A stretch of DNA of 64,000 nucleotides from an uncultured Neglectibacter sp. (GCA_947647615.1 CANSKS010000008.1:1-64000), one strand, 5' to 3'. Positions 9,694-45,831 are shown, counted from the stretch's first letter. Numbers and translations: made by a program. The notes: generated from the letters alone by a model not told the origin.

Positions 9694-10027
9694 GCTTCGC
9701 CAGCAGGGCTTTATGGGAGAAACCGGGTTATCATTTGAGCACACAAGACTGGAGCTCCTTTTTAGCTCGCGATATTGTATAGGATGCTATAATGGAAAGC
9801 GTCTAAACACAATGTTGCCTTTTATTATAGCCTGTCCCATTGTATGATTCTATGCAAAAAATGGAATTGTAAGACAAATCTCACAAGATTTTATAAAATG
9901 GATTATCACAGCAAAAAGCAGGAAGAGAAGATAGATAAACTTACAGCAAAATCCCTGACTAATGCTATAAGAAAAGATCTGCTTTATGAAAGTCCAGCCG
10001 CAGAAGGAAGAAAAGGAGTCGCTAAAA
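9694..10027. other. Intergenic region upstream of the URO-D-like gene
   Basis: This stretch contains a TATAAT at about 9790 without a convincing -35, and a small inverted repeat GAGCT/AGCTC. The ORF drawn through it on the plus strand has no family features. I see no gene, riboswitch or remnant here. Confidence 0.4.
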
Positions 10028-11149
10028 ATGAATGCAAAACAACGTATGAAAGCCGCAATGGCTGGGGAAAAGCCAGATCGGGTTCCGCTTATGTGCCAGT
10101 TTTCCCTTGGATATCTGGCACAGCACAGCCATATGGACTTGATCGATTTCTGGTATACTCCTCATGGACTGGCAGAAAGCTATATCCGCGCGGCGGAGCA
10201 ATACCATTTCGACGGTATTTTAGTGAGCATTACGGGCAGAAATCCAGAAGAAAAGAATGCCATCCAGGAGGTGCAAGATGCCCCCGATGGATCAAAACTG
10301 GTGGTCTTTCGCACGGGAGAACAATATATCGTTCCCTACAATGATTTTCCTTACCCGGCAAAAAAAGAGCAAAATGGCAAGCCCTCGGGCCTTGCGGGTA
10401 TTTCGGTGGAGAATCTCCATTTGCCGATGACAAAGGAGGAGCTTCCGGCCTATGAATTCAATATACTGGAGGAGATCCTTGAAAGAAAAAAAGATGAGCT
10501 TTCCATACACGGAGAAGTGGGGACTTGTTTTGAGCTTTACTTAAAATTATTTGACACATGGGAAAATGGCCTTGTATCGCTTTTGGATGAAGAGGAAAAG
10601 GCCCTTTCCCTCATGAAATACATGAATAAATCTGTGATCCTGCTGGCTCTGTCACAATGCGAGCTTGGGATTGACGCGTTAAAACTTAGTTCGCCTTTTG
10701 CGGGAGCAGGTTTCATTTCCAGGGAGATGTACAGCAAGTTTGTTTTGCCTTTTGAAAAGGAAGTCATTGTGGCGGTGCATAAACAGTACGGAATTCCATG
10801 TTATATCCATACTTGCGGAGCCATCGGCGACAGATTGGATTTGCTGGTGAAAACCAATATAGACGGCTTGGAATGTTTAGACCCGAAGCCTTTAGGGACG
10901 GTAGATTTAGAAGAAGCTGTTGCTGAAATTGGCAGTAAAGTATTTATCAAGGGCAATTTAGATTCCGCAAACGAACTCCGCTATGCAACGTCGGAGGAAG
11001 TAATTGAGATCGCCCGCCGCAGGCTGGAGATCGGCGCAAAATGTCAGAAAGGCTACATTTTAAGCACAGCATGTTCCATTTCTCCCGATGTTCCGCCAGA
11101 AAACATTTCCGCCCTGTATAGCTGTATAAAAAGATATGGAGATAAATAA
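10028..11149 (+). CDS. URO-D-fold methyltransferase, MtaA/MtbA-like
   Basis: A 373-residue protein of the uroporphyrinogen-decarboxylase superfamily (PF01208). The zinc-binding pattern of corrinoid methyltransferases MtaA/MtbA is present: His261 and Cys263 in IHTCG, and Cys349 in STACS. Heme UroD lacks these residues and no heme genes are nearby, so methyl transfer is the more likely chemistry. No corrinoid protein gene is adjacent, and substrate and acceptor are unknown. The track start is upstream; the ATG at 10028 follows AAAGGAG at good spacing. It is a single plus-strand gene facing noc, inserted in the noc-parA interval. Confidence 0.82.
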   Translation: MNAKQRMKAAMAGEKPDRVPLMCQFSLGYLAQHSHMDLIDFWYTPHGLAESYIRAAEQYHFDGILVSITGRNPEEKNAIQEVQDAPDGSKLVVFRTGEQYIVPYNDFPYPAKKEQNGKPSGLAGISVENLHLPMTKEELPAYEFNILEEILERKKDELSIHGEVGTCFELYLKLFDTWENGLVSLLDEEEKALSLMKYMNKSVILLALSQCELGIDALKLSSPFAGAGFISREMYSKFVLPFEKEVIVAVHKQYGIPCYIHTCGAIGDRLDLLVKTNIDGLECLDPKPLGTVDLEEAVAEIGSKVFIKGNLDSANELRYATSEEVIEIARRRLEIGAKCQKGYILSTACSISPDVPPENISALYSCIKRYGDK

Positions 11150-30234: not shown

Positions 30235-31788
30235 TCAGGTCAAAAAGATCGTCAGCAGCGCCACACCCATTGGGGGTACCTTTAAACTGACAGAAACTTT
30301 TTCTTGATCAACTGGGATATCAAAAGTCTCACGTTCCGGTTCGGAAGCCGCCTTCAGCTCTTCCAGCTGCGCTTTTGTAACATATTCAGGGGAGCCCTGC
30401 TCACGCCATCGGGCAATGGCATTGGCATGGGTATCATCAATGCGTTCCACCTGGGCTTTTAATATGGCCCCCGCGGAGATCTTCAGGCCTTTCAGCGTGA
30501 TCTGGACTTCTTCTTCCTCAATAGGATGCAGCAGGGAATGATGGTTCACCGCCAGAAGCTGCAGCGCGCCGGCGGCCGCGTGTTTTACTGTGTAAAGATC
30601 TAGCGTCCCTTCGGATAACTTTTCCTCGTAAAGCGTGTCTCCAAGCGTATGCAGTAACTGAAAAGCCCGGTAAGATGCTTTTGGAACACCATGAAGTGTC
30701 AAAAGACCGAAACCTCCGTGAAACTCAGCGCTGGGCATTCCGTTTTCCTCAAAAATATCGCTGAAGGTCCAATAAGAATATCCTTTTGCCAACCCAACAC
30801 CGTCTAATACCGTTTTGACGATAAAGGAGGAACCGAAGGGGCCATCCGAAGGAAGGCCCGCCAAGCTGTTCCACTCGGTATAATAGACCGGAAGACCGTC
30901 AGCTTCCTGAACTGCTTTTCTGGTCATCTGTGTGACAACGCCCCGATCTACGCGTTCCCACAAGTGCGCATGAAAAGCTTCCAGCTTTTCTTGGAAGGCC
31001 TTCATGAATTCCGGATCTTCCAGCTGTTCCGGTGTAGGGCGGCCGAAATTGGCGCTGTCTTCCACACCGTAACCCAAGACTACATCTGTGGGGTAGTGGT
31101 GGGTAGAGATGAAATCGATAGGTACTTGGTTTTCCCGGCAAAATTTCACCATTTCCGGAATCCACGAATTATTGGAGGTGGCAGGTCCTCCTACTCGCAA
31201 AAATTGGTCCTCAGATTTGACGGCTTCGGCTGTCACCTGATACAGCTTGAAATAATCCTCCATAGAACCCGCAAAGAAGCTGTCAGAAGAATCGGGACCC
31301 CCAAGATTAGGTTCATTCCATACTTCAAAAAACCACTGGCGTACCTCTATACGTCCATATCGCTCTATCAAGTGCCGCACAAAGGTGCGGATAAACCAAG
31401 CCCACTTACCGTGATCTGCAGGTGGGGCTGTATTCCCTTTATAATGGAACACGGCGGCCGGTTTGCTCTTTAGGCAGTCCGGCATAAATCCCAGCTCAAT
31501 AAAGGGCTTCATGTTGATGGAAAGAAGAAAATCAAATATACTGTCGATATTGGTAAAGGAAAGCTTCATACCGGTACCAAAAGGTTCCTGTTTCAGTACG
31601 CTCATATCATCGTCGAACAAACCGTGGAACCGCACATAGCGAAAGCCGATCTCTCTCTGGCACTGTTCTAGCTGTTTACGGTAGTCTTCCCGCAGTGCGG
31701 TTGCGCCGTGGCAGCTTCCCACACACAGCTCCCAATATTTTTCCAGAGGTTTAGTAGCGGAATCCACGTTTATTTGAAATTGTTTCAT
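30235..31788 (-). CDS. Glycoside hydrolase family 39, probable beta-xylosidase
   Basis: A 517-residue GH39 enzyme. The acid/base is Glu159 in FEVWNEPN and the nucleophile is Glu305 in YYTEWN, both standard in T. saccharolyticum-type xylosidases. A (beta/alpha)8 barrel is followed by a beta-sandwich. No signal peptide is seen, so it acts inside the cell on imported oligosaccharides. It lies 53 bases after the LplC-type permease as the last gene of the binding protein-permease-permease-hydrolase unit. Xylo-oligosaccharide cleavage is inferred from family; other GH39 specificities are possible. Confidence 0.88.
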   Translation of the reverse strand: MKQFQINVDSATKPLEKYWELCVGSCHGATALREDYRKQLEQCQREIGFRYVRFHGLFDDDMSVLKQEPFGTGMKLSFTNIDSIFDFLLSINMKPFIELGFMPDCLKSKPAAVFHYKGNTAPPADHGKWAWFIRTFVRHLIERYGRIEVRQWFFEVWNEPNLGGPDSSDSFFAGSMEDYFKLYQVTAEAVKSEDQFLRVGGPATSNNSWIPEMVKFCRENQVPIDFISTHHYPTDVVLGYGVEDSANFGRPTPEQLEDPEFMKAFQEKLEAFHAHLWERVDRGVVTQMTRKAVQEADGLPVYYTEWNSLAGLPSDGPFGSSFIVKTVLDGVGLAKGYSYWTFSDIFEENGMPSAEFHGGFGLLTLHGVPKASYRAFQLLHTLGDTLYEEKLSEGTLDLYTVKHAAAGALQLLAVNHHSLLHPIEEEEVQITLKGLKISAGAILKAQVERIDDTHANAIARWREQGSPEYVTKAQLEELKAASEPERETFDIPVDQEKVSVSLKVPPMGVALLTIFLT

Positions 31789-31841
31789 TTGGATACACTC
31801 CCATAATTCGAATTTTTACAGTCTGCCATTTTTGCGTGCCG

Positions 31842-32732
31842 TCACCCTTTGACCGCGCCAATGGTGATTCCCTTTACAAAATATTTTTGGAAAAAGGGGT
31901 AAATAATAAGTGCCGGCAGCGCACCTAAAACGGCGACTGCCATTTTGATCCCTATGGAGGGCAGCGGGCCCATCTGCTGATTTCCTGCGGCCGCTGTATT
32001 GGCGCTGCTCATCAAAAACTGCACGTCCATCAGCATTCGGTTGAGCAGTACTTGAATGCTGTACAGGCTATCCTTTTGAATATAGTATAGGCCGTTGAGC
32101 CAGTCGTTCCAATAACCAAGCCCTGTCAACAGTGCCAGTGTGGCAATGATCGGCAAAGACATGGGCAGTACGACCTTCAGCAGGATCCGCATCTCGCCCG
32201 CCCCGTCTATTCTAGCCGCTTCAATGACGGCATCGGGAATATTGGAAGAAAAATAGGTGCGCATCATAATGACATAGAATGCACCCATGAGCAGGTTTGG
32301 CACCAACAACGCAAAAATGGTATTTTTGATGTGGAAGGTCTGGGTCCACATGATATAGGTGGGCACAAGGCCGCCGTTAAAAAGCATGGTAAAAAAGATA
32401 AAAAAAGAGAAAATGTAGCGGCCCGGCAGATCCCTGCGAGACAGCGGATAGGCCATTAGAGTAGTCATGACCAAGCTGATACAGGTACCCGTTCCCGTGA
32501 CAAAGATGGAAATTATATAGCCTCTTACAATGGAGCTGGAATCTACCAGCAAGTATTTATAAGCATCTATACTGAGATTGGCCGGGAAAAAGGAATACCC
32601 GTTCATAATCAGCCAGTTTTCCTCAGCAAAAGAAGAAATAATCAGCAGCAAGAAGGGCAAAACGCATAGGAGGCATAGCAAAACCATGATACCATGTGCA
32701 ATAATCTGAAACGTTCTATTTCTCTCTACCAC
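31842..32732 (-). CDS. Carbohydrate ABC transporter permease, LplC/YtcP type
   Basis: A 296-residue permease with six membrane segments and the EAA loop EAARIDGAGEMRILLKVVLP that docks the ATPase. The end KYFVKGITIGAVKG is typical of the LplC/YtcP group. The ORF opens 17 codons upstream, overlapping the previous gene; GTG at 32732 has GAGGGGG before it and leaves a 13-base gap, so it is preferred. With LplB and the binding protein it forms an oligosaccharide importer. No ATPase is encoded here, so a shared MsmK-like ATPase elsewhere is expected. Confidence 0.92.
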   Translation of the reverse strand: MVERNRTFQIIAHGIMVLLCLLCVLPFLLLIISSFAEENWLIMNGYSFFPANLSIDAYKYLLVDSSSIVRGYIISIFVTGTGTCISLVMTTLMAYPLSRRDLPGRYIFSFFIFFTMLFNGGLVPTYIMWTQTFHIKNTIFALLVPNLLMGAFYVIMMRTYFSSNIPDAVIEAARIDGAGEMRILLKVVLPMSLPIIATLALLTGLGYWNDWLNGLYYIQKDSLYSIQVLLNRMLMDVQFLMSSANTAAAGNQQMGPLPSIGIKMAVAVLGALPALIIYPFFQKYFVKGITIGAVKG

Positions 32733-32745
32733 GATACCGCCCCCT

Positions 32746-33687
32746 CTAAAACAATGCGTTTTCGGAATCGAGCTTCCGCACAATGAAGTTTGCCGTTAAG
32801 ACCAATATAAAGCCCACCAAAGATTGGTACATGCCCGCGGCCGATGCCATGCCCACATTGTTCAGCTGCATCATACTGCGATAAACAAAGGTATCAATAG
32901 TATTGGTCACATCCATCAGCGCTCCCGAATTCATGGGCACCTGGTAGAACAGGCCGAAGTCAGAATAAAAAATGCGGCCAATGCTCATCAGAGTTAGTGT
33001 GACGATGGTGGGCTTTAAACCCGGGAGAGTCACATGAAGGAATTGCTGCCAACGGTTGGCCCCATCAATTACTGCGGCCTCGTAATAGCCTTGGTCAATC
33101 CCCACCAGCACGGAAAAATAGATAATGCTGTTATATCCGAATACTTTCCACACCTGTACCAGGATCAAGATAAAAGGCCAATATTTCGGAGAGGTATACC
33201 AGGAAACCGGGTTTTTCCCCATGCTGACCAAAATGGAGTTGTTGATGAAGCCTGTATCCGTGGCCAAAAAGGCATTGACCAAATAGCTGACAATGACAAT
33301 GGAAATCAAAAAAGGCACCAATACAATCGTTTGGTAAACCTGCTGAGCTTTTTTGAGCTTGATCTCGTTGAGCAGTACCGCTACTGCTATAGCAAACAAT
33401 GTGCCAATAACAATAAACGCCAAATTGTACAACAACGTATTTCTGGTGATCAGTAGCGCATCCTTGGTTCGGAACAAAAATTCAAAGTTTTTCAGCCCAA
33501 TATTTGGGCTGTTATAAAGGCCCAGGCGGGTATTATACTGTTTAAACGCCACCACAATGCCCGTCATTGGAATGTAGTTGTTGACAATGATATAGGCGAT
33601 GCCCGGAAGCATCATCAGATAGAGCGGCAGATATCGGGTAAAATGCTTTTTTTCTTTTACCGGCCCCGCGGCAGAGAGTTTTGCCAT
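32746..33687 (-). CDS. Carbohydrate ABC transporter permease, LplB/YteP type
   Basis: A 313-residue permease with six membrane segments. It begins with a basic cytoplasmic tail, then RYLPLYLMMLPGIAYIIVNN, and carries the EAA loop YYEAAVIDGANRWQQFLHVT. The group usually serves polygalacturonan, xylan or alginate oligosaccharides. It lies between the binding protein and the LplC permease, with a stem-loop upstream. Confidence 0.92.
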   Translation of the reverse strand: MAKLSAAGPVKEKKHFTRYLPLYLMMLPGIAYIIVNNYIPMTGIVVAFKQYNTRLGLYNSPNIGLKNFEFLFRTKDALLITRNTLLYNLAFIVIGTLFAIAVAVLLNEIKLKKAQQVYQTIVLVPFLISIVIVSYLVNAFLATDTGFINNSILVSMGKNPVSWYTSPKYWPFILILVQVWKVFGYNSIIYFSVLVGIDQGYYEAAVIDGANRWQQFLHVTLPGLKPTIVTLTLMSIGRIFYSDFGLFYQVPMNSGALMDVTNTIDTFVYRSMMQLNNVGMASAAGMYQSLVGFILVLTANFIVRKLDSENALF

Positions 33688-33747
33688 GGAAAGCCCTCCT
33701 TATAGAAATTAGCTGGCAATTCAAACAAGTGCGGGCCAACAGGCCGC

Positions 33748-33769
33748 GCCCGATGAAGCTTCACCGGGC
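33748..33769 (-). other. Intercistronic stem-loop between the LplA-type and LplB-type genes
   Basis: GCCCGGTGAAGCTTCATCGGGC on the minus strand can form an 8-bp stem. No T run follows, so it is not a terminator. Positioned after the binding-protein gene, it could protect that mRNA from 3' decay and set a high binding protein to permease ratio. The second locus has a similar element. Confidence 0.55.
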
Positions 33770-33806
33770 ACATAGCCTATTGCCCGCCTTTTTCGGCCAT
33801 ATAAAA

Positions 33807-35378
33807 CTATTTATTTTCCGCCATCCACGCATCCAACTTGGTCTGCTTATCTTGGATAATAGTATCGAGCCCGGCGTCTTTAAGCTCCTGGTTGAACTTA
33901 TTCAGGTCCGTTTCCGGGTCCAGCGCGCCGGCCTGCAGCGCTTTTACATATTTGTTGAGTACATTGGTGCAGGATGTCACCTCGTTAATGACATCTGCAT
34001 TATCCCATACAAATCCCTTTGCAACAGAAGCAGGAGCGTTGGCGTTGAATTCCCCTAAATTTTTCCAAAGATCTGGGTCATCTCCTTCAAATACATAAGA
34101 GATCTGTTCGTTGGCGGCGCCCCAAGCCAGGTTGGAATAACCGGTGGAACCGGCCTCCACACCATCGGCATAGCCGACGACCCCTTTTTCTTCGTCTACA
34201 AATTTCCAGTGCTTACCCTCAATTCCATAAATAAAGATGTTGGAAAATTCGGGGTTCATATACATTTCGTTGATCACCTGCATAGCGCGTTCCGGCTTTT
34301 CACTGTTGTTGGCGATACACCAACGCAGGCCAATGTTTGCGGTGGTACTGTACTCCTCTACCAGGGGAGCAATATAGACCTCTTTGCCGCAGTTGCGGAT
34401 CCATTCCGCTTCGATACCGGGTTTTATATTTGTGATGAAGGAAAAGGCCTTTCCAGCGCCCAACAGGCTGTTGGCAGATTCCGTGCTGCTGGCGGCATCG
34501 GGCTGCATGTACCCTTTCTGATTGAAATCATACATGGTTTTGATCCAATCCACATAGGATGCCGTCTCAAATAAATTGACGACCTTAAGGTCTTCCTCGG
34601 TGGTCAGCGCATCTTCCAACACTCCAAAGTTTTCGTCACACAAAGGGTCAATGCGTAAGGGACGGCGGATGTCGCCGAAGTCTGCAATGAGCATGTACAT
34701 TTCTGGGTGTTCCGCCCTGACCTTTTCAAAAATGGGTTCGGCATCCTTCAAGGTTTTTATACTCTTCCAATCGATGCCCATGGCATCCACAACATCCTTC
34801 ACCATCAAGAGTCCAAAAGAACTGGCTTTTTCAATGTTGTAGGGGACACCCGTAATGTTCCCGTTGATGGTAACGCACTTCCAGTCCAGATCATTGATCG
34901 CTGCCTTGGTATCCGGAGCATATTCATCCAAATAGTCGTTTAAGGGCAGGATTTGGTTTTGGACCATCATAGTTGCCGGGGAAAAACCGAAAGATGAAAT
35001 GACGTCCAGCTTTTCTCCGGAGTTCAGCGCCAGGTTTGCCTGGTCCTTATAAGAACCGAAACCCACGCGGACCATGTCTATGGTGGTGTTGTATTTAGCT
35101 TTGGTAAGTTCAGAAAGCTTTGCCGCTACCTCATTGGTGTCCTCTGTTTTCGCGTCGCCGAAGTACATGATTTTTACAGTGTATTCCTCTTGCCCACTCA
35201 TGTCATCCGCGGAAGCGCCGCTGCCGGACCCAGACACAACGGAAGAATCTGTGCCACCGTTCCCGCCGGTGCCGGAGGCCGAACCGGCAGAAGAATTTCC
35301 GTCTCCGCCGCAGGCAGCCATGGTGGCTGTCAACATTGCTGCCGCCAGGATCACCGACATAATTTTTTTCAGCTTCAT
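33807..35378 (-). CDS. Extracellular solute-binding lipoprotein, LplA type
   Basis: A 523-residue lipoprotein. A signal peptide ends in the lipobox MAAC at about residue 22, then a Gly/Ser/Asp-rich linker of about 45 residues precedes the binding-protein fold (EEYTVKIMYFG onward). The size and the paired LplB/LplC permeases match the family that binds oligosaccharides. The ATG follows AAAGGAG. It is the first gene of a four-gene operon ending in GH39, divergent from the sensor kinase gene. Confidence 0.92.
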   Translation of the reverse strand: MKLKKIMSVILAAAMLTATMAACGGDGNSSAGSASGTGGNGGTDSSVVSGSGSGASADDMSGQEEYTVKIMYFGDAKTEDTNEVAAKLSELTKAKYNTTIDMVRVGFGSYKDQANLALNSGEKLDVISSFGFSPATMMVQNQILPLNDYLDEYAPDTKAAINDLDWKCVTINGNITGVPYNIEKASSFGLLMVKDVVDAMGIDWKSIKTLKDAEPIFEKVRAEHPEMYMLIADFGDIRRPLRIDPLCDENFGVLEDALTTEEDLKVVNLFETASYVDWIKTMYDFNQKGYMQPDAASSTESANSLLGAGKAFSFITNIKPGIEAEWIRNCGKEVYIAPLVEEYSTTANIGLRWCIANNSEKPERAMQVINEMYMNPEFSNIFIYGIEGKHWKFVDEEKGVVGYADGVEAGSTGYSNLAWGAANEQISYVFEGDDPDLWKNLGEFNANAPASVAKGFVWDNADVINEVTSCTNVLNKYVKALQAGALDPETDLNKFNQELKDAGLDTIIQDKQTKLDAWMAENK

Positions 35379-35903
35379 GTTTCTGTATCTCCTTTATATT
35401 CAACAAAATTCCCTTGTTGGGAGTACTTCTATCCTAGCACATACGTCATTCTGTCCGAAAGAATCTTTGGCGACCTTTTCTTATTGATTTTCTGACCTAT
35501 CTCAACCCAGGCCGCTAGCTGGCATTAAAAAAACGATATTCTGCTGTTGAGAATCTGACATTCGCTTTTCCCTTTTCTTCTCCGGCAAGCAAAAGCCAGA
35601 GTATCATCCGGTTTTTGGTTTTGCAATAAATATCTGGTAAGCAGTGATGAAAATCGTGCTGTTACTTAAAGGATAGCTCACATAAACCAACAGTCGGTTG
35701 TTCTAATGTCTTGTATTGTAATATACTGAAGAAAATCTATAAATGGATAAGAAGTATAGAATATGGCAGAGAATAGGCAGTTCGATTATTCGGCCATGGA
35801 GGGCTGAACAAAGCGTTCCAGCCCAAACTTTTATGTTATCTGCCACCTACCATCAGATTTTTTGAACAGGATTCTTAATCGCTGAAAGAGGTATCTCTGC
35901 AAT
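35379..35903. promoter_or_regulatory. Divergent regulatory region between the LplA-type operon and the YesM-type kinase
   Basis: This 525-base gap has no coding signal. On the plus strand TTGTTC (35698-35703) and TATACT (35722-35727) are spaced 18 bases and could serve the kinase gene. On the minus strand only weak boxes lie upstream of the transporter gene, which fits an activated promoter controlled by the YesN-type regulator. I see no clear catabolite-response element. Confidence 0.5.
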
Positions 35904-37670
35904 ATGAAACTCAACCAAACCTTTGGTTCTATGCCTTTCAAGCGGAAAGCTTTAATTGTGCTGCTGATCCTTGTGTTGCCGCTGCTGATTTTTATCGGCT
36001 GCTTTGTCGCCTATACCATCCAGCGACAGAACGTCCAGCTTTCAGAAAGCGCCAGAAATATGCTCTCTTACTATCAAAACGCTTTTGAAGCCGATTCACG
36101 GAGCATTTCTTCCTACCTTGTAAATCTTTCGTCTACCGACTATGATTTCCAACAGCTCTGCTACTGCAGGCCTTACCTGGATGCCCATCTCAGTTCTTAT
36201 GAACTCATGCAGAAGTTTAAACTTCAACTGGAAGGGAACCTTTCTTTGGGCGCCTTGTTTATCCTCGCGCCAGAGAACGACCTTTTTCGGGGCGTTTACC
36301 ATTTGGAAGATTATCCCCTGGAGATAAAAGAGGAGATCTGGAGCTTTTTGAAGGAATGTGTTCTTCAAGACGATAGCTGCTCTGCCAGGGGCTGGCTGCT
36401 TCGAGAAATGGGCGGTAAATATTTTCTTTTCCATTTCTTTGGGAAAAAGGGCTCGCACACCTATTGTGCCGCTATGATGGACTTGAACCGGGCTATTGTC
36501 CGCAGGATAAACAATACCCCCACAATGTCAGAAGCTTTGGCGTTCTTTTTAGCCTCTGATACCGAAGGCAGTGCTTTTCCTTTAAGCAGTCCCCGGAGCC
36601 TTGAAGAGGCAGATATCGCCCTACAGCCGCGGAAAACCGGGTATTATATCACCGGCGGAACTCAGAAATACCTGATCGTACAAGCGCCCATCGAAAACAT
36701 GGAGATTTCTATTGGCTACGCTACCCCATACTTTGGGTTTTTCAGCGGGCTAGATAGTGTACAGGTAACACTGCTGCTTTTGAGCTGCGGACTGATCGGC
36801 CTGATCCCAATCTGTTATTTGCTGATGCAAAAGTCGTTGTTTTCCCCCATGCGGGAAATGACTCATACCATTGAAAAATTGGGAGACGGCGATCTGCATG
36901 TGAAAATGGAGGCGCCATTTGCCATCCAGGAATTTGAAAGTGTACGAACTTCATTCAATAACATGGTGGAACGGATCCGGCAGTTGAAAATAGCTTCCTA
37001 CGAAAAGGAACTGGAGGCAAAGCATGCCAAACTTCAATATCTCCAATTGCAGATACGGCCTCACTTTTACCAGAACTGCCTGAAGAGCTTATATGCGCTG
37101 GCAGAGGCCCGGCAGTATGACAGTATCCAAAGCTCCATTTTAGCCCTTTCCGGGTATTTGCGTTTTATTTTCAGAGACAGTATGAAGCAGATCCCTCTTT
37201 CCCAGGAGCTGCGAAGCATCCGAGATTACATGCAGCTTCAGGCACTCTGCCACACCTGCCCGCCCCAATGCCGTATGGAGATCGATGCCGGGCTGGAGGA
37301 TTTTTTGATTCCACCTCTTTCCCTGGTTACCTTTGTAGAAAACTCTGTACAGCATGGCGTTACCCTGGGGCATCCCCTTATTATCAATATTTGTGTAACG
37401 TGGATAAAAAGCAGAACAGGGGATTACGTAAGCCTGCTCGTTTCCAATAATGGGCCGCCTTTTCCTGATTCCGTTTTAAAAGAGGCGGCAGATCCGGAAC
37501 CTCAGATCTACCGTTCTCGGCACGTGGGCATCATCAACATTCGCTACCGCCTGCAGTTGTTGTACGGTGGGGCCGCCGCCCTTTCGCTGTACAATTCAGG
37601 TGGCCTTCCCTGTGCAGAAATTTTTTTGCCTTGGAAGGATTCCAACATGAAAGAAGAGGATATCACATGA
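35904..37670 (+). CDS. Sensor histidine kinase, YesM type
   Basis: A 588-residue membrane kinase. One membrane segment lies near residues 15-38 and a second near 285-307, enclosing an extracellular sensor of about 245 residues. A HAMP domain (near PMREMTHTIEKLGDGDLHVK), a His_kinase domain with the phospho-acceptor in QIRPHFYQNCLKSLYALAE, and a HATPase domain (VENSVQHGVTLG, RHVGIINIRYRL) follow. It ends as ATGA overlapping the response regulator start, so the pair is coupled. YesMN-type pairs often respond to plant oligosaccharides and control an adjacent transporter. Confidence 0.93.
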   Translation: MKLNQTFGSMPFKRKALIVLLILVLPLLIFIGCFVAYTIQRQNVQLSESARNMLSYYQNAFEADSRSISSYLVNLSSTDYDFQQLCYCRPYLDAHLSSYELMQKFKLQLEGNLSLGALFILAPENDLFRGVYHLEDYPLEIKEEIWSFLKECVLQDDSCSARGWLLREMGGKYFLFHFFGKKGSHTYCAAMMDLNRAIVRRINNTPTMSEALAFFLASDTEGSAFPLSSPRSLEEADIALQPRKTGYYITGGTQKYLIVQAPIENMEISIGYATPYFGFFSGLDSVQVTLLLLSCGLIGLIPICYLLMQKSLFSPMREMTHTIEKLGDGDLHVKMEAPFAIQEFESVRTSFNNMVERIRQLKIASYEKELEAKHAKLQYLQLQIRPHFYQNCLKSLYALAEARQYDSIQSSILALSGYLRFIFRDSMKQIPLSQELRSIRDYMQLQALCHTCPPQCRMEIDAGLEDFLIPPLSLVTFVENSVQHGVTLGHPLIINICVTWIKSRTGDYVSLLVSNNGPPFPDSVLKEAADPEPQIYRSRHVGIINIRYRLQLLYGGAAALSLYNSGGLPCAEIFLPWKDSNMKEEDIT

Positions 37671-39250
37671 CCATTTTGGTGATAGATGATCAAGTAAACG
37701 TAGTCAACGGCATTGTTTCCGGTGTAGATTGGGAAAGCGCCGGCATCTCAAAGGTGCTGTGCGCTTATAACGCGTCGATGGCCCGTGAAATTCTGGAATG
37801 TCAGCCGGTAGATATCCTGCTGAGCGATATTGAAATGCCGGTGGAGGATGGGTTGAGCCTCTTCCGTTGGACGCGCGGCAGAAGGCTTCCCGTAGAGTGC
37901 ATTTTTCTTACCTCCCATGCAGATTTTATCTACGTAACGGAAGCCCTGAAACTGGGTTGCTTTGATTATCTCCTTCAACCCGCTCGGTATGAGGAAATTT
38001 GCGGTGCCGTCCGCAGAGCTGTGGAAAGAGTGCAGCAAAACAGAGAAGCGCAGCAGCTGTATTCCTATGGAAAGGCAGTATACCGAAATCGGGATCTCTT
38101 TTTCCAAGGGATCCTGAAGGACTGGCTCACCGGTGCTGCCCTTCAGCTCAAGGAAATTTTGAGATGCTTCGGAGATTTGGGAATCCCTATGAGAGAGGAA
38201 ACTCAAATCCGAATCGTCATGGTACATCTACTGCGCTGGTACGATGAGCCTTGGGAGGCGGCCCCTCTCTATACCGCCCTAGAAAACGTTGCCGCCGAGC
38301 TTTTTGAACAGCTTGGTCAAAGGCTTTTGTTGCTGCGCCTGGAAAAGACCAGCTACCTGCTCTTCCTCTTTCCAAAGGCCCTGCAGAATTTGCCGGAGGA
38401 AGCGGTTTTAGAGGCCCAGGTGGCTCGGCTTGCCGAAGCCCTTCAAACCCATCTCCACTGCGGCATTGCATGCTATACGGGAGCCGCGGTTCCCATAAAG
38501 GAATCCCCTGCGCTGGTCCAGCGCTTAAAAAAGATGTCATTAAACAACGTTTCCCGGCAAAGCGGTATATTTTTTTATGAACAGCCCAAAGAGCTTCCTC
38601 CCGCCTTTATCCGTACAGATAAACTTCCCTATTGGAAAAATTTGCTGCTCAACGGCTGTACAAAAATGACGGAAGAAGAGATCTTCTCTTATTTGCGCCG
38701 GGCAGAAGAATCCAATGTTCTGACCCGCGAATTCCTGGAACAGTTTTGCGGCGATTTTATTTGTATGATCGCAACACTTCCACAGGAAAATGATTTTCGG
38801 AATATACTCTCCCAGCCCGAAATTCAAGATCCTTTTTCCCATGCCTCAGAAAACTTGGAAGGCACCTTAACGTTTATCCAAAGAGTTCTTCAGCGGTTTC
38901 AACCCCCTGAAGGAAGGGGTTCGGAAAAAGATCAAATAAACCGTATCGTAGAATATATTCAACACCATCTCAGCGAGGAGCTCCGCCGCTCCGATATAGC
39001 GGAAGCTGTCTATTTGAACCCGGATTACCTGTCCCGACTTTTCCGAAAAGAAAAGGGAATGTGCCTAAAAGAATACATCCTATGTGAAAAAATGAAAATT
39101 GCGCAGGCCATTCTACGCTCTACCGACTTGCCTGTGGCTGTGGCGGCCGCGCGGGTCGGGTTTGAAAACTATTCTTATTTTTCCCAGGTTTATAAAAAGG
39201 TGATTGGGGTGAATCCCTCCGCGGAACGCTTAAAAGGGCCTAATGCGTAA
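37667..39250 (+). CDS. Response regulator, YesN type (REC-AraC)
   Basis: A 527-residue regulator. The receiver domain (1-120) has DD near residue 7, the phosphoacceptor Asp54 in LLSDIEMP, and a conserved Lys/Ala switch (SHADF near residue 80). A middle region of about 290 residues without recognised domain follows. The C-terminal AraC double helix-turn-helix (about 425-525; ADIAEAVYLNPDYLSRLFRKEKG-like, and VGFENYSYFSQVYKKVIG) binds DNA. The start was moved to the ATG overlapping the kinase stop. It probably activates the divergent transporter/GH39 operon. Confidence 0.93.
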   Translation: MTILVIDDQVNVVNGIVSGVDWESAGISKVLCAYNASMAREILECQPVDILLSDIEMPVEDGLSLFRWTRGRRLPVECIFLTSHADFIYVTEALKLGCFDYLLQPARYEEICGAVRRAVERVQQNREAQQLYSYGKAVYRNRDLFFQGILKDWLTGAALQLKEILRCFGDLGIPMREETQIRIVMVHLLRWYDEPWEAAPLYTALENVAAELFEQLGQRLLLLRLEKTSYLLFLFPKALQNLPEEAVLEAQVARLAEALQTHLHCGIACYTGAAVPIKESPALVQRLKKMSLNNVSRQSGIFFYEQPKELPPAFIRTDKLPYWKNLLLNGCTKMTEEEIFSYLRRAEESNVLTREFLEQFCGDFICMIATLPQENDFRNILSQPEIQDPFSHASENLEGTLTFIQRVLQRFQPPEGRGSEKDQINRIVEYIQHHLSEELRRSDIAEAVYLNPDYLSRLFRKEKGMCLKEYILCEKMKIAQAILRSTDLPVAVAAARVGFENYSYFSQVYKKVIGVNPSAERLKGPNA

Positions 39251-39448: not shown

Positions 39449-40339
39449 TCAGCCCTTTTCCTTTTGTTTCCCAAACTCACGCATGCTGCGCCGGTATTCC
39501 GTGGGGGTTTGACCGGTGTATTTTTTGAAATTTTTTGCGAAAAGCTGGCTGGAAGACATACCCACCGCATAGGAAACCTCAGTGATAGGCATGAAGGTGT
39601 AGGTAAGGATTTCCTTTGCCAGCTCAATTTTTTGCCGCACGATATAATCGTGGGGGCTGTGAAAAGAGATCTCCTGGAATTTCCGCTTAAACTGGGAAAG
39701 AGAAAGGTAGGCCATATCGGCCATAGCCGAAACAGAAAGGTTTTCGGCGGCGTGGGAATCGATATATTCTTTCACAGCCAAAACATTCTCATCCACCTTG
39801 GAAACGTGCTCATTATCGATCAGCCTGCAAAGCTCATAAAAAAACTGAACCATAAGACTTTGTATTCTACAGATCTTCAAAGGGTCCTCGGAAAAATAAA
39901 GGCGAAGGACTTCATCTAAAACAGGTTTCACAATTCCCGCGCCCTTTACAAAACGGGAAGAGACAGAAAATAGCTTTTTCATAATATATTGAGTTTCTTT
40001 TTCACTCAGATTCATAAAGCGGTTTCCAGCCTTTACAGCATCAAAAATCAGATAGAAAAACTTGCTTTTTTCTTCCTGGTAATTTCCCGTGCTGTGATGT
40101 TCATCGGGGAAAGAAATAAAAATATTACCTGCATGGGTATCGTAGCTATGGCCGTTTATTTCGTAATGCTGGCAGCCTTCGTAATGGACGCAAATTTCGA
40201 ATTGCCCGGGATGAGTGTGTGGGACAAAAGCCAGCTCTGAGGCCAGAAATTCCACTTTGGCCAGGGAAAGCAGGTTAGGGATGCCAAGGTTCTCAAAATG
40301 AAGCATTTTCCGCTCTTTTGTAAATTGATCTTCTTTCAC
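39449..40339 (-). CDS. AraC-family regulator with a cupin-like sensor domain
   Basis: A 296-residue regulator. The N-terminal cupin-type arm (EICVHYEGCQHYEINGHSY, AGNIFISFPDEHHS) probably binds a sugar. The C-terminal double helix-turn-helix shows LSVSAMADMAYLSLSQFKRKF and ITEVSYAVGMSSSQLFAKNFK. AAAGGAG lies before GTG at 40339, so this start is used. It is divergent from the binding protein gene of the second uptake locus and likely regulates it. Its end (EYRRSMREF) resembles the remnant at 30148-30234. Confidence 0.9.
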   Translation of the reverse strand: MKEDQFTKERKMLHFENLGIPNLLSLAKVEFLASELAFVPHTHPGQFEICVHYEGCQHYEINGHSYDTHAGNIFISFPDEHHSTGNYQEEKSKFFYLIFDAVKAGNRFMNLSEKETQYIMKKLFSVSSRFVKGAGIVKPVLDEVLRLYFSEDPLKICRIQSLMVQFFYELCRLIDNEHVSKVDENVLAVKEYIDSHAAENLSVSAMADMAYLSLSQFKRKFQEISFHSPHDYIVRQKIELAKEILTYTFMPITEVSYAVGMSSSQLFAKNFKKYTGQTPTEYRRSMREFGKQKEKG

Positions 40340-40418
40340 AGAATTCACTCCTTTGACTTGCAAAACAGAACTGAAATGGGCACCCTTTTTCTGCAGATAA
40401 ATTTTTTATTACTATACA

Positions 40419-40556: not shown

Positions 40557-41882
40557 ATGTTAAGGAAAGTGAAAAGGTCGTTTTTGGTCCTTTTAGCGTT
40601 TTGCTTGCTGTTTACGACAGCCTGTACCGCCTCGCCGGAGAATTCTTCCGCGGAGAATTCCTCTTCCAAGGCAGAAGCTTCGGAAGGCACAGAAAGCAAA
40701 CCTACAGCTCAAAAGACAGAGGGTGATGTCAAAATAAAATTTGCCAGCTTTCAAACCGGAGATGTAGCGGAAGATTGGGAAACCGTTCAATTTCCAAAAT
40801 ATCTGGAAGAAACAGGGGTAGAGGTGGAACATGTGTTTGTGAACCAGGACGACACCATTTCTACTTACCTCACTTGGGCTGCTGCCGACCAAATGCCGGA
40901 TACCGCGATGCTGAGCGCTCTGTATTTGAACTCGCTGGTGGCAAAGGGTATGGTACTCAACCTCAGCGAATACACAGCGGAGAAGTCTCCCGATTACAAT
41001 TTTGACCGCTACCTGCCAAAACTGATGGATGCCTATAAATATGAGGATAATATTTACGCGCTGCCCAGCGACCTGGACCTGGGTCTCATGTGGTATAACA
41101 AAGATATTTTTGACAATGCCGGAGTAGCTTACCCCAATGAAAACTGGACTTGGGAAGATTTGAAAAAGAACGCCGAACTTTTGACCAGCGGGGAAGGCCC
41201 GGAAAAGATATTCGGCGTATGGCTGGGAGGCTACCAGACATACCTATGGCAAAATGGTACCGATATTTTGTCCGAAGACAAAAAGAGCTCTTTATTTAAT
41301 ACGCCAGAAGTAAAGGATACGATAAACTACATGATGGATATGGTGACTGCCGGGGTTGCCATAAATCCCAGCAGTAAAGAACCATTGTTCCAGAACGGAA
41401 AGGCGGCCATGTCCCTGGGTTCTGGTCCCTGGTTTGCCCATTACGAAATGGAAAACGTAGATTTCAACTGGGGAGTTACCGCTTTGCCCAAGGGAAAAGA
41501 AAAGGCTACGACCTGCTATGGCTCTACCTTTGCAGTTTTTGAGGGAAGCAAGAATGTAGATGCCAGCGTGGATTTCCTCACCTGGTTCTTAAGTGATGAA
41601 CAGCAGTTGGACAGAGCCGAAAAGTTCTATTGGTTCCCGCCGACACAAAGCTGTATTGAAAACGATACTTTTATGAGCACCGACAGCATAATGGGTATGA
41701 CAAAGGAACAAAAAGAGCTGGTGCTCGCGGAAACGGCTTTCGGCAAAGCCCCCGTTATTGTGGAAAAGCAAAATGAGGTCAACGAAGTGATAAACAGCGA
41801 GCTTTCCCTGATGTGGGCGGAAGAAAAGAGTGTAGACGACGCCTTGGCCAAGATTGCGGAAGAAGTGGATAAGCTGCTGTAA
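40557..41882 (+). CDS. Sugar ABC transporter solute-binding lipoprotein
   Basis: A 441-residue binding protein of the SBP_bac_1/family 1 type. Signal peptide with lipobox TTAC at about residue 22, a Ser/Glu-rich linker, then IKFASFQTGDVAEDWETVQF and the typical YALPSDLDLGLMWYNKDIF region. The track starts at 40548, but AAAGGATG overlaps that ATG and is correctly spaced for the ATG at 40557. It is the first gene of the unit with two permeases and a URO-D-like protein. Confidence 0.9.
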   Translation: MLRKVKRSFLVLLAFCLLFTTACTASPENSSAENSSSKAEASEGTESKPTAQKTEGDVKIKFASFQTGDVAEDWETVQFPKYLEETGVEVEHVFVNQDDTISTYLTWAAADQMPDTAMLSALYLNSLVAKGMVLNLSEYTAEKSPDYNFDRYLPKLMDAYKYEDNIYALPSDLDLGLMWYNKDIFDNAGVAYPNENWTWEDLKKNAELLTSGEGPEKIFGVWLGGYQTYLWQNGTDILSEDKKSSLFNTPEVKDTINYMMDMVTAGVAINPSSKEPLFQNGKAAMSLGSGPWFAHYEMENVDFNWGVTALPKGKEKATTCYGSTFAVFEGSKNVDASVDFLTWFLSDEQQLDRAEKFYWFPPTQSCIENDTFMSTDSIMGMTKEQKELVLAETAFGKAPVIVEKQNEVNEVINSELSLMWAEEKSVDDALAKIAEEVDKLL

Positions 41883-41901
41883 AAAACAGCTTGTGGAAAA
41901 G

Positions 41902-41935
41902 GTTGAGCCGTGGTTCTAAAAAAACACGGCTCAAC
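41902..41935 (+). other. Intercistronic stem-loop between the binding-protein and permease genes
   Basis: A perfect 11-bp inverted repeat, GTTGAGCCGTG/CACGGCTCAAC, with a 12-base loop, is followed by AATACGG rather than a T run. It is probably an RNA processing or stabilising element that keeps the upstream mRNA more abundant. Confidence 0.7.
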
Positions 41936-41977
41936 AATACGGAATGTCAGAAAACATTGTGAAAAGGGAGGGTTATT

Positions 41978-42871
41978 GTGAAAACCAAAAGTAAACTCGC
42001 CCAGAGGCAAAACTTTTTTGGGTACCTACTCATTTTGCCGGCATTTGTCATTATAGGCGTGTTCAGTCTCTACCCCATTCTCAACGGTCTGTTTTTAAGC
42101 TTTTGTGAGTGGGAGGGCATAGGAAACGCGGCTTTTAACGGAATAGAAAATTATATCACCCTGTTTCATGACGAGGTGTTTGGAATTGCTTTGCTCAACA
42201 CCCTGGTGTTCGTTTTAGGTACAGTCCCCGCTGTAATTCTGCTTTCTCTGATGTTTGGTTCTTTGCTGAATCAAAAAATCGTGGGGAAAAAATTTTTCCG
42301 GTCGGTCTATTTTTTACCCTCGGTCACCTCCGGTGTGGCCATTGCCATGATATGGAAATGGATTTTTAATGAAAATACCGGCCTTTTAAACTTCCTGCTG
42401 TATTCTTTTGGGTTAGACTCAGTAAGCTGGCTGACGAGTTCTCAGTTTTCCTTGATATCGGTCATGATTATGAGTGTTTGGAAAAGCCTGGGCACCAATA
42501 TCGTCATTATGTTGGCAGCGCTGCAGGGAGTACCCAGAGAGCTCTACGAAGTGGTGAGCATGGACACAAAAAGCGGTTTCCGCAAGTTTTTTCATATCAC
42601 AATCCCCATGATTTCCCCCACCATATTCCTAATCATGGTTATGTCGGTCATCAATGCCTTTCAGGCCTTTGACCAGGTTATGGCCCTGACAGGAGGGGGA
42701 CCGGGGAATTCCTCCATGGTAGTGGTGCTCTATATTTATAACCAGGCTTTCAAAAACTTTAAAATGGGGTATGCCTCTACCCTGGCCTATGTGCTGTTCC
42801 TCATTATTCTGGCCGTCACGCTGATACAATGGTACGGGAAAAAGCATTGGGTGTACTCAGAGGTAGAATAA
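41978..42871 (+). CDS. Sugar ABC transporter permease (MalF/UgpA type)
   Basis: A 297-residue permease with six membrane segments: [21 protein letters not shown] at the N-terminus, and the EAA loop VPRELYEVVSMDTKSGFRKFF (here E-x-x-S rather than EAA-G). The start codon is GTG with AAGGGAGGG upstream. It is paired with the MalG-type permease 27 bases downstream. Confidence 0.92.
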   Translation: MKTKSKLAQRQNFFGYLLILPAFVIIGVFSLYPILNGLFLSFCEWEGIGNAAFNGIENYITLFHDEVFGIALLNTLVFVLGTVPAVILLSLMFGSLLNQKIVGKKFFRSVYFLPSVTSGVAIAMIWKWIFNENTGLLNFLLYSFGLDSVSWLTSSQFSLISVMIMSVWKSLGTNIVIMLAALQGVPRELYEVVSMDTKSGFRKFFHITIPMISPTIFLIMVMSVINAFQAFDQVMALTGGGPGNSSMVVVLYIYNQAFKNFKMGYASTLAYVLFLIILAVTLIQWYGKKHWVYSEVE

Positions 42872-42898
42872 AGCTGTGAAAAGAGGTGCTTTCCCATC

Positions 42899-43726
42899 AT
42901 GGAGAAAAAGAATATTTTCAAGAAAATAGCGGTGTACTTTTTTTTGACGCTGGGTGGCATTACCATGGTCCTTCCATTTATTTGGATGATATCCACGTCC
43001 TTGAAAACAAAAAAACAGCTGGTGGCATATCCGCCGGTTTGGATTCCCAACCCGGTAAGGTGGGAAAATTATAGCGAAGCCGTAGGGTCCTTCCCTTTTC
43101 TTCAATACACCTTAAACACCCTGTTTGTGACAGTGTCGGTTTTGGTGGGTACAGTGATCATATCTCTCTGCGCCGGCTACGCCTTTGCGAGAATCAACTT
43201 CAAGTTCCGTGACCAGCTTTTTCTGGTCATTCTGGCCACTATGATGATCCCCGGGCAGGTGACAATGATTCCTATTTTTAAGCTTGTAAAGGACCTGGGT
43301 TGGATGAATTCTTACCTCGCTTTAATTATTCCCTCTCTTTGTTCGGGATTTTCTATTTTCCTGATGCGGCAATTCTTCCTGAGCCTTCCCAAAGAGTTGG
43401 AATCGGCTGCAATGGTGGACGGCTGCGGTCCCTTCCGAACCCTTTGGAGTATTTTTGTGCCCCTGTCCAAACCGGCCATTGCCACGGTTTCGGTTCTGAG
43501 CTTTATGGGGACCTGGAATTCCTTTTTGTGGCCGCTGCTGCTGATCAGCGACAAAAACAAACAGATGATCACAGTAGGGCTTTTGCAGTTTCAAGGCGCT
43601 TTTTCCACCAGTTATGAGCTGTTGATGGCAGCGGCATTTTTGTCTTTGCTGCCGGTGTTCCTCATCTACTTTTTTGCCCAGGAGTATTTTATCGAAGGCA
43701 TTGCGACCTCCGGTATGAAAGGATGA
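42899..43726 (+). CDS. Sugar ABC transporter permease (MalG/UgpE type)
   Basis: A 275-residue permease beginning with a basic tail and a membrane helix (GGITMVLPFIWMISTSLKT). The EAA loop is LESAAMVDGCGPFRTLWSIF and the end EYFIEGIATSGMKG is typical. It probably uses a shared ATPase from elsewhere. It lies ten bases before the URO-D-like gene. Confidence 0.93.
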   Translation: MEKKNIFKKIAVYFFLTLGGITMVLPFIWMISTSLKTKKQLVAYPPVWIPNPVRWENYSEAVGSFPFLQYTLNTLFVTVSVLVGTVIISLCAGYAFARINFKFRDQLFLVILATMMIPGQVTMIPIFKLVKDLGWMNSYLALIIPSLCSGFSIFLMRQFFLSLPKELESAAMVDGCGPFRTLWSIFVPLSKPAIATVSVLSFMGTWNSFLWPLLLISDKNKQMITVGLLQFQGAFSTSYELLMAAAFLSLLPVFLIYFFAQEYFIEGIATSGMKG

Positions 43727-43736
43727 CCTGTTTTTT

Positions 43737-44786
43737 ATGACAGAACGAGAAAATTACTTAAAAACTGTCCGGATGGAAGACCCAAAGTGGATTCCTGCCT
43801 CCATTTCCGTCAATTTGGCTTCGCTGATCGAATATAAGGGCGAAATGGAAGAGGTCATAAAGCGCCATCCCGACTTTTTTCCATGGTTCCGGCCTGGGTC
43901 CATCGATTATTCCAAATATGGCGACGGTACCTGCGACATTCTGGAAAGGGACAGCTGGGGTTATGATTGGCACTATACCATGTATGGGATTGAAGGTTGT
44001 GTGACCCACCATCCATTGGAAAATTGGGAAAACCTTAAAACTTACCGTGCCCCCGACCCGGATCAAGTTTTAGACCGGGGCGGGAAAAGGGATTGGGCCA
44101 AAGAATTTTCCCGCATAGCCGCCCGGAAACAGGCGGGACAGCTCACTTCCGGAAGCCTTGTGCACGGGTTTCTCTTCCTCCGGCTGCAATACCTGAGAGG
44201 GTTTGAAAACCTGATGTACGATATGGCGGACGACGCGCCCCAGCTTTACAAACTCATCGGCATGATAGACGAGCACAACCTGAAAATTACTCGGCGCTAT
44301 TGTGAGGCGGGCGTTGATATTATGGAGGTGCCGGAAGACCTGGGCACAGAGAAATCCATGGTGATCAGCAAGGAGATGTTCCAAAAATTCATCAAGCCCT
44401 CTTACCGGAAAATCGTGGGGGAAATCAAAAAGAATAATGTGCTGGCTTCCATTCACAGCGACGGGTATATCATCGACATTATCGATGACTTGCTGGAGGT
44501 GGGAATGGATATCATAAATCCCCAGGACCTGTGCAACGGCATCGATAATCTCAAGCGGACCTTAAAGGGCCGGGCCTGCATACGGTTGGATATCGATCGG
44601 GTAAAGATTACTCCCTACGGCAGCCGCAAGGAGATTTTTGAACTGATCGAAGAAGAAGTGAAAGAGCTGGGTTCTCCCCGGGGCGGGCTGGATTTCATTT
44701 ACGGCGTCTATCCTCCTGTCACCCCGGACCGTCTCAATTACCTTTGTGAGGCTCTGGAAAAATACCGCACCTACTGGTGGGACTAG
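43737..44786 (+). CDS. URO-D-fold protein lacking the MtaA zinc ligands
   Basis: A 349-residue member of the uroporphyrinogen-decarboxylase superfamily, assigned from its overall pattern (ITRRYCEAGVDIMEVPEDLG, then HSDGYIIDIIDDLLEVGMDI). At the metal site the motif is His240-Ser-Asp242 instead of H-x-C, and the C-terminal cysteine position reads FIYGVYPPV. The zinc triad of MtaA is therefore missing. It is the last gene of a sugar-transporter operon, ten bases after the MalG-type permease, so it probably acts on the imported compound. A role in demethylating O-methyl sugars or in another decarboxylation is a guess. The ATG is preceded by AAAGGATGA at long spacing. Confidence 0.8.
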   Translation: MTERENYLKTVRMEDPKWIPASISVNLASLIEYKGEMEEVIKRHPDFFPWFRPGSIDYSKYGDGTCDILERDSWGYDWHYTMYGIEGCVTHHPLENWENLKTYRAPDPDQVLDRGGKRDWAKEFSRIAARKQAGQLTSGSLVHGFLFLRLQYLRGFENLMYDMADDAPQLYKLIGMIDEHNLKITRRYCEAGVDIMEVPEDLGTEKSMVISKEMFQKFIKPSYRKIVGEIKKNNVLASIHSDGYIIDIIDDLLEVGMDIINPQDLCNGIDNLKRTLKGRACIRLDIDRVKITPYGSRKEIFELIEEEVKELGSPRGGLDFIYGVYPPVTPDRLNYLCEALEKYRTYWWD

Positions 44787-44788
44787 AT

Positions 44789-44831
44789 AATACAAAAGAA
44801 GGCCGGATATTCCGGCCTTCTCTGTATTTTT
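44789..44831. terminator. Terminator between the URO-D-like gene and the esterase
   Basis: The stem GAAGGCCGGA/TCCGGCCTTC, extended by AATACA/TGTATT, ends in TGTATTTTTT. It separates two converging genes. Confidence 0.88.
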
Positions 44832-44871: not shown

Positions 44872-45693
44872 TCAATAGGGATTTCCGGCGCCGGTATCAT
44901 CCAGGCCGAAGAAAGAAAGGGCATGCTGTATAGTGAGATCCCAAAACCGCCATTCGTGGGAGTAACCGTCTATGATCTCAAATTCCGCGTCCAACTTGAG
45001 CTCTTTTGCGTACTCTTGAAAAGAGAGGAAGGCGTCGTAAAACATATCCTGCTTTCCAATGGCAAAGTAGAGGCGGGGCAAGCGGTTGGTCTGGGCCATT
45101 TCTCCCAGGATCTTCCAAGTGTTTTCGTAGGAATCCAAATATTTTTCCAGGCCGCCTGCGTTTTTAATACTGCCCTGGGTACGCTTCCACATATTGGGCT
45201 CCTGCTTGGGGAGAAGATCTACATTTCTGGGGCAGGCCGAAAGCACTGCCGCAGCCGCAAACTTCTCCGGGTGGTTAAAGGCGTAAACACAAGTGCCCCG
45301 CCCACCCATGGAAAGACCGGCGATAAAATTATCTTCCCGCTTTTCGGAGGCTGGGAACCACCCGTAAATCAAGGGCATAAGCTCTTCTGTCAAATAGTCG
45401 TACATGTTAAAGCCAATGGAGAATTCCGGCCAGTTTGCATAATTGGAATTTAAAGCACTGGGCATCACCACAATCAAGTCACGCTCGCAGGCGTAAAGCT
45501 CAATGTTGCTTTTGCGCACCCAGTCGGAATGGTCCCCAAAGGTGCCGTGGAGCAGCCAAAGAACCTTATATTTCTTTTCCTGGGAGTAGAATTCCTTCGG
45601 TGTAAGTCCCCGGGCTTTATCCGGGAGAACTACAGACACCGTGGTGTTCCCCATCAAGTATTCACTTTGAAAGTTCAGCTGTAAATAGGCCAT
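44872..45693 (-). CDS. Alpha/beta hydrolase, EstA/esterase D-like
   Basis: A 273-residue carboxylesterase of the esterase D / putative tributyrin-esterase type. The nucleophile is Ser128 in GLSMGG, the oxyanion region is LLHGTFGDHSDW, and the catalytic His lies near the end (DGYSHEWRFWD). No signal peptide is seen after correction of the start, so it works inside the cell. AAGGAGGG lies before the ATG at 45693, which replaces the longer track start. In this setting deacetylation of imported xylo-oligosaccharides is plausible but inferred. Confidence 0.88.
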   Translation of the reverse strand: MAYLQLNFQSEYLMGNTTVSVVLPDKARGLTPKEFYSQEKKYKVLWLLHGTFGDHSDWVRKSNIELYACERDLIVVMPSALNSNYANWPEFSIGFNMYDYLTEELMPLIYGWFPASEKREDNFIAGLSMGGRGTCVYAFNHPEKFAAAAVLSACPRNVDLLPKQEPNMWKRTQGSIKNAGGLEKYLDSYENTWKILGEMAQTNRLPRLYFAIGKQDMFYDAFLSFQEYAKELKLDAEFEIIDGYSHEWRFWDLTIQHALSFFGLDDTGAGNPY

Positions 45694-45831
45694 AGTTTGT
45701 TCCCTCCTTGAAAAAATTTCCGACTTCCTCAAAAGGCCGTTTTCCTTGGGAAACATCCGCAAGCCACAAGGCGCTCAAAAGGACAGAAACATGCTCCGGC
45801 AAAGGTTGCGGGCGAGGATTCCGAAAACCGG

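Follow-up and report, generated by a model that had tools for sequence, protein, structure and literature searches.

A sugar transporter operon ending in a URO-D-fold protein of the HSDG clade, a candidate corrinoid methyltransferase

Why does an operon for sugar uptake end in a gene for a protein of the URO-D superfamily, and what might this protein do there? The question arises from a 64,000-nucleotide stretch of DNA from an uncultured Neglectibacter sp., an anaerobic bacterium; the stretch was analysed as a whole and is called the window in the following. The original prediction had placed here a divergent AraC regulator and an operon of a sugar-binding protein (SBP), two permeases and a metal-site-deficient URO-D-like protein. 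All five genes are indeed found in their predicted places, and the AraC gene is divergent.

The transporter operon and its surroundings

The AraC-family regulator, with a cupin sensor domain and an HTH_18 domain (PF12833 7.7e-17, PF02311 6e-7), is encoded on the minus strand (39449-40363). On the plus strand, one operon comprises a MalE-like sugar-binding lipoprotein, i.e., the SBP (40557-41882; PF13416 1.5e-30, PF01547 2.1e-30), two CUT1-type permeases and the URO-D-fold enzyme of 349 aa (43737-44786), with gaps of 95, 27 and 10 bp between consecutive genes. The first permease is UgpA/MalF-like (41978-42871; PF00528 5.4e-16) and the second UgpE/MalG-like (42899-43726; PF00528 3.6e-23), with scores of 143 and 149 bits in the NCBIfam UgpA and UgpE models, both below cut-off. 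The operon thus has the SBP_bac_1/8 protein and the two BPD_transp_1 permeases that mark a CUT1 sugar ABC transporter. The SBP reading frame is open already from 40548; the start at 40557, as originally predicted, has the better-spaced Shine-Dalgarno sequence. Best solved relative of the SBP is Lmo0181 (5f7v, 2e-24), and since SBP homologues bind many oligosaccharides, we do not call its ligand.

Two stem-loops accompany these genes on the plus strand. One can be read directly in the 95-bp gap between SBP and first permease (41902-41935, GTTGAGCCGTGGTTC...CACGGCTCAAC) and probably serves differential expression by setting a higher SBP level. The other closes the operon as a terminator-like structure (44797-44821) of 11 pairs, seven of them G-C, and is terminator-like on the other strand too. 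CUT1 sugar ABC operons under AraC have the same SBP and two permeases, a divergent AraC gene and no ATPase gene; the ATPase presumably is a shared one. Usually, however, a glycoside hydrolase or phosphorylase takes the last position, which here is held by the URO-D enzyme.

Beyond the terminator, a convergent esterase gene (PF00756, 44872-45762) lies outside the operon. On the other side, at 30235-39250, the window holds genes for a GH39 protein, two permeases and a DUF3502 SBP on the minus strand together with a histidine kinase/AraC-type response regulator pair on the plus strand. The transporter at 31842-35378 has a close paralogue on contig C34 (SBP 416 bits, permeases 490 and 470 bits), accompanied there by a related kinase/regulator pair (253 and 282 bits). 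The segment 7048-30086 is the replication-origin region with ParB, DnaA, DnaN, an SMC/RecF-type protein, GyrB and GyrA; the distance between dnaA and the sugar operons is about 10-25 kb.

Sequence class and conserved pocket of the HSDG clade

With a PF01208 score of 46.1 bits against a gathering cut-off of 23.9, the last protein of the operon belongs to the URO-D superfamily. RQAGR is the N-terminal substrate motif of the HemE family, uroporphyrinogen III decarboxylase. Our protein lacks this motif and reaches 19.3 bits with the HemE model TIGR01464 (cut-off 302.95), which rules out a HemE function; the folds are alike (Foldseek top matches, 10-16% identity), but the operon contains no haem genes. 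The original prediction had likewise seen no link to haem synthesis. Sequence affinity is greater to MtaA-type methyltransferases (about 35.4-37 bits with TIGR01463, cut-off 235.4), and the best solved relative of the clade profile described below is the Methanosarcina mazei methylcobalamin:CoM methyltransferase 4ay7.

The clade profile alignment to 4ay7 puts H240 and D242 of the motif H240-S241-D242-G243 (codons 44454-44465, plus strand) on the zinc ligands His and Cys. The predicted exchange of H-x-C for H-x-D is therefore present, and the C-terminal cysteine is missing as well: cysteines occur only at positions 66, 88, 189, 266, 281 and 337, and Y322 occupies the third-ligand position of MtaA. 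As only one of three zinc ligands remains, this is not a typical MtaA, again as proposed. A second URO-D paralogue of the window (9986-11149, plus strand, start probably at 10028; PF01208 137 bits) has the full H-C-C ligand set and, when read from 10028, keeps H261, C263 and C349 exactly at the predicted positions.

Across 84,980 scanned species genomes, we found 79 loci with 39-68% identity, distributed over Clostridia, Armatimonadota, Zipacnadia/WS1, Planctomycetota, Lentisphaerae, Kiritimatiellae, Hydrogenedentota, Omnitrophota, Spirochaetes and Bathyarchaeota; a search of viral contigs gave no match. Aligning 78 loci with the window protein gave 79 sequences, of which 77 have HSDG and two HHDG, so that the motif is no chance feature, and Asp replaces Cys throughout. 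Twenty-four positions are invariant, namely N6, D72, G75, W78, P106, H143, G144, R154, D162, D201, G203, P221, Y223, H240, D242, G243, N261, Q263, D285, D287, R288, L311, G316 and G317. At the third-ligand position, the clade has Y, A, C, V or others, and this ligand is hence not conserved. The term metal-site-deficient was thus misleading: with H143, D201, H240, D242, N261, Q263, D285, D287 and R288 invariant in all homologues, the protein appears, also from its structure model, to have a different, fully conserved active site. A degenerate or dead copy is ruled out by the motif's constancy in 79 sequences and by a branch support of 1.0 for the clade. The HSDG clade is a real, widespread and uncharacterised branch of the UroD superfamily, and our literature search found no paper describing it.

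An AlphaFold2 model built from the clade alignment (mean pLDDT 96.8, pTM 0.92) places these residues in space. Strands 138-140, 195-197 and 236-240 are predicted to end at or just before invariant polar residues (H143; D201; H240 and D242, respectively), and those following strands 259-261 (N261, Q263) and 281-285 (D285, D287, R288) are modelled at or just after the C-terminal strand ends. By the secondary structure of the model, the invariant polar residues hence sit at the active-site end of a TIM barrel. Closest Foldseek neighbours are UROD and M. mazei MtaA (TM 0.62-0.67), followed by MetE.

In the host genome of 2.8 Mb, we found about 23 URO-D genes but only one gene each for a corrinoid protein, the corrinoid-protein activator RACE and MttB (loci L115-L134). 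The second ligand position is C in 12 and D in 11 of the 23 paralogues, with D on several branches, which rules out that H-x-D is unique to the window protein. Taken together with the clade alignment, this means that H-x-D recurs across the superfamily, and it is the fully conserved HSDG pocket that defines the clade. In the tree, the window protein and a paralogue on contig C3 form one clade with support 1.0. The third Cys is clearly kept at its canonical position by only three host paralogues, on contigs C66 and C6 and in the window. The one on C6 (L116:7420-11041) is a 459-aa protein with FVCG and the C-terminal Cys, followed by genes for a GTPase of CobW type and a binding protein of NMT1 type, an arrangement that could be a link to metal delivery.

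Gene neighbourhoods and corrinoid machinery

The roughly 23 URO-D genes are scattered over the host genome; sugar ABC transporter operons contain or adjoin five of them, namely the one in the window operon and those on contigs C55, C2, C34 and C71. The C55 locus repeats the order AraC, SBP, two permeases and URO-D. On C34, a URO-D gene with HSCG stands beside a two-component system and the transporter closely paralogous to the one at 31842-35378 of the window. The C71 operon (L133, G000:C71:4337-11998, minus strand) encodes two permeases, GH4, MttB, a divergent URO-D protein with HADA for HSDG, and a nucleoside hydrolase. This MttB is the only one of the genome, and through it a sugar operon of the host also includes a methyltransferase of a second family.

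In other clade members, neighbours lean to carbohydrates, with an alpha-galactosidase (L088), GH20 and GH88-like proteins (L045), Gfo/Idh/MocA and xylose-isomerase-like proteins. AraC homologues adjoin the clade gene at L035, L096, L100, L103, L105 and L109. Two of these loci (L096 and L109, Candidatus Merdivicinus) share the clade gene, a divergent AraC gene and a second URO-D gene on the opposite strand, an arrangement kept between two species. It had been proposed to collect homologues beside sugar permeases and to look for the HSDG form: the form is general among the homologues, but within the clade we saw direct permease-permease-URO-D adjacency only in the window and at Treponema L097, there with an alpha-L-fucosidase and a ROK gene. 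With 176 and 102 Pfam families, the neighbourhoods are diverse, and we found no operon partner conserved enough to reveal the substrate.

As regards the substrate, the next operon of the window pairs a DUF3502 SBP and permeases with GH39, which makes xylan-type compounds one candidate. Polysaccharides of plants and algae often bear O-methyl groups, e.g., in the 4-O-methylglucuronate of xylan, and this sugar would be a natural guess from general knowledge. Our literature searches on URO-D proteins with sugars, corrinoid-dependent demethylation of sugars and aldouronates returned nothing direct, and no anaerobic enzyme removing O-methyl groups from sugars was found reported. An O-methylated sugar, one of the substrates originally considered, stays plausible, whereas positive evidence is lacking for a carboxylated sugar or for a chemistry not described for this fold.

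Corrinoid machinery accompanies the clade. Besides the host, 49 genomes bear a clade gene; many are drafts, so that absences are soft. RACE is found in 47 of the 49. B12-binding_2 is matched in 47 as well, in most cases by a small corrinoid protein (200-270 aa). By hand tally from the tables, every one of the 49 has RACE or B12-binding_2, and in 18 both lie within 5 kb. Base rates were taken from host family and host phylum. Among 200 genomes of the family, RACE occurs in all six clade carriers compared with 61 overall (p = 7e-4), and in a phylum-wide sample the corresponding numbers are 6/6 and 218/399. Within the family, RACE also goes with URO-D genes as such: it is present in 33 of 40 genomes with at least two URO-D matches, counted among the matches listed, versus 28 of 160 (p = 2e-14). 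Among family genomes with any URO-D match, 6/6 clade carriers have RACE versus 31/50, hence the clade adds little. The link between clade and RACE is an association and not a proof; it may stem from further URO-D or MttB enzymes that these genomes encode, and RACE lies near the clade gene at only one of 78 loci (L058).

The host encodes both a corrinoid protein and its reductive activase, the prerequisite for a methyltransferase I. Their genes form a hub on contig C4 (L130:5848-10376) in the order RACE (65.8 kb), DUF1638, AraC and MtgC-like corrinoid protein (69.7-70.4 kb), and neither a URO-D nor an MttB gene adjoins them. Just outside this hub lie a ketohexokinase and a GH4 gene. Among the genes of the window operon, there is none for a corrinoid protein, RACE or a methyltransferase II, and a PF00809 search for pterin-binding proteins in the host matched solely dihydropteroate synthase, i.e., no methyltransferase II of the PF00809 type. 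The layout, with URO-D genes scattered and a single hub, suggests that many substrate-specific methyltransferases I may feed one corrinoid protein, which would be unusual.

Candidate reactions and their meaning

Can methyl transfer be expected from a protein that has lost zinc ligands? The original prediction had answered in the negative, and our analysis does not support this exclusion. CdmB, a UroD-superfamily methyltransferase with a solved structure, contains no metal and is unaffected by EDTA or zinc, and zinc was also reported to be absent from the Moorella O-demethylase (PMC13222342). These precedents, together with a clade that travels with corrinoid machinery, weaken the argument from the missing ligands. 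Like the HSDG protein, OdmB, VdmB, MtvB, MtoB and CdmB belong to the superfamily; zinc is dispensable in CdmB and MtvB, and all need a corrinoid protein and an activase (PMC13222342). Compared by their descriptions, they are clustered with corrinoid protein and methyltransferase II genes and have aryl methyl ethers or chloromethane as substrates (PMC13222342), whereas the HSDG protein has a sugar ABC transporter context and a polar invariant pocket.

We tentatively propose, with slightly less than even confidence, that the URO-D protein is a sugar- or glycoside-specific corrinoid methyltransferase I acting in trans with the single corrinoid protein of the genome. AraC would induce the operon, and the ABC transporter would bring in a small glycoside or oligosaccharide, a plant or algal sugar compound. 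The URO-D protein would bind this compound or a breakdown product in its polar pocket (H143, D201, H240, D242, N261, Q263, D285, D287, R288) and transfer an O-methyl group to the Co(I) form of the corrinoid protein from C4 (69.7-70.4 kb), kept active by RACE (C4:65.8 kb), while the demethylated sugar would pass into ordinary catabolism. Methyl transfer, the sugar-like substrate and action in trans are what we infer in this scheme. It counts against a methyltransferase I that the operon comes without corrinoid protein or methyltransferase II, whereas known systems of this kind are usually clustered.

The main rival is that the URO-D barrel forms a sugar-modifying enzyme (lyase, isomerase, epimerase or decarboxylase), metal- or acid-base-dependent and without any methyl chemistry, in which the conserved His and Asp residues would bind a divalent metal or the sugar directly. 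This corresponds to the undescribed chemistry first envisaged. In its favour, Asp, Asn, Gln and His abound in the conserved set, just as they do in TIM barrels that act on sugars, and the context leans to carbohydrates with no adjacent corrinoid gene; Foldseek also returns sugar epimerases, although far more weakly. Near-universal co-occurrence with RACE and corrinoid proteins and the sequence affinity to methyltransferases speak against it, and we regard it as rather unlikely.

Alternatively, the methyl group might come not from the sugar but from a methoxylated aromatic aglycone of plant glycosides (monolignol/ferulate-type). Among characterised relatives, OdmB, VdmB and MtvB are demethylases of methoxyaromatics (PMC13222342; PMC10418091), and the convergent esterase at 44872-45762 would fit. 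Yet the cavity of CdmB is mainly aromatic (PMC13222342), unlike the polar invariant residues here, the esterase stands outside the operon and the SBP is of sugar type, which leaves an aromatic substrate improbable.

H240 and D242 align to MtaA zinc ligands and thereby recall a methylcorrinoid:thiol methyltransferase of MtaA/Mlp type, i.e., a methyltransferase II with an altered metal site. With MtaA, MtbA, MtsA and the Mlps (type 1 MGCs, PMC10418091), the HSDG protein shares the fold (4ay7, TM about 0.66), the His of H-x-C and a genome that also encodes a corrinoid protein and RACE. It differs by Asp for Cys, an unconserved third Cys, scores far under the family cut-offs and the lack of a gene cluster with corrinoid genes. 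Since, of the three zinc ligands for thiolate activation, two are missing or unconserved clade-wide, and the three other host paralogues with the full ligand set suit thiol transfer better, this role seems very unlikely. Least probable is a regulatory or substrate-binding pseudoenzyme that reports the imported sugar: the canonical catalytic ligands of characterised types are lost, but 24 positions invariant in 79 sequences, among them charged residues modelled at active-site strand ends, point to catalysis.

Extending the methyltransferase I proposal to the family, we may speculate that the HSDG clade is the missing oxygen-independent O-methyl-sugar demethylase, in the form of single-gene methyltransferases I that are dispersed over sugar-import and glycan operons of many anaerobic phyla and share one corrinoid protein and one RACE, although we hold this generalisation to be more doubtful than not. 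If true, it would explain why some clade genomes have at least 20 URO-D genes and only one corrinoid protein and one activase, and the clade would tie the degradation of glycans by anaerobes of gut and sediment to corrinoid C1 metabolism. Whatever its chemistry, the HSDG clade is a large and clearly defined enzyme family that is simple to assay.
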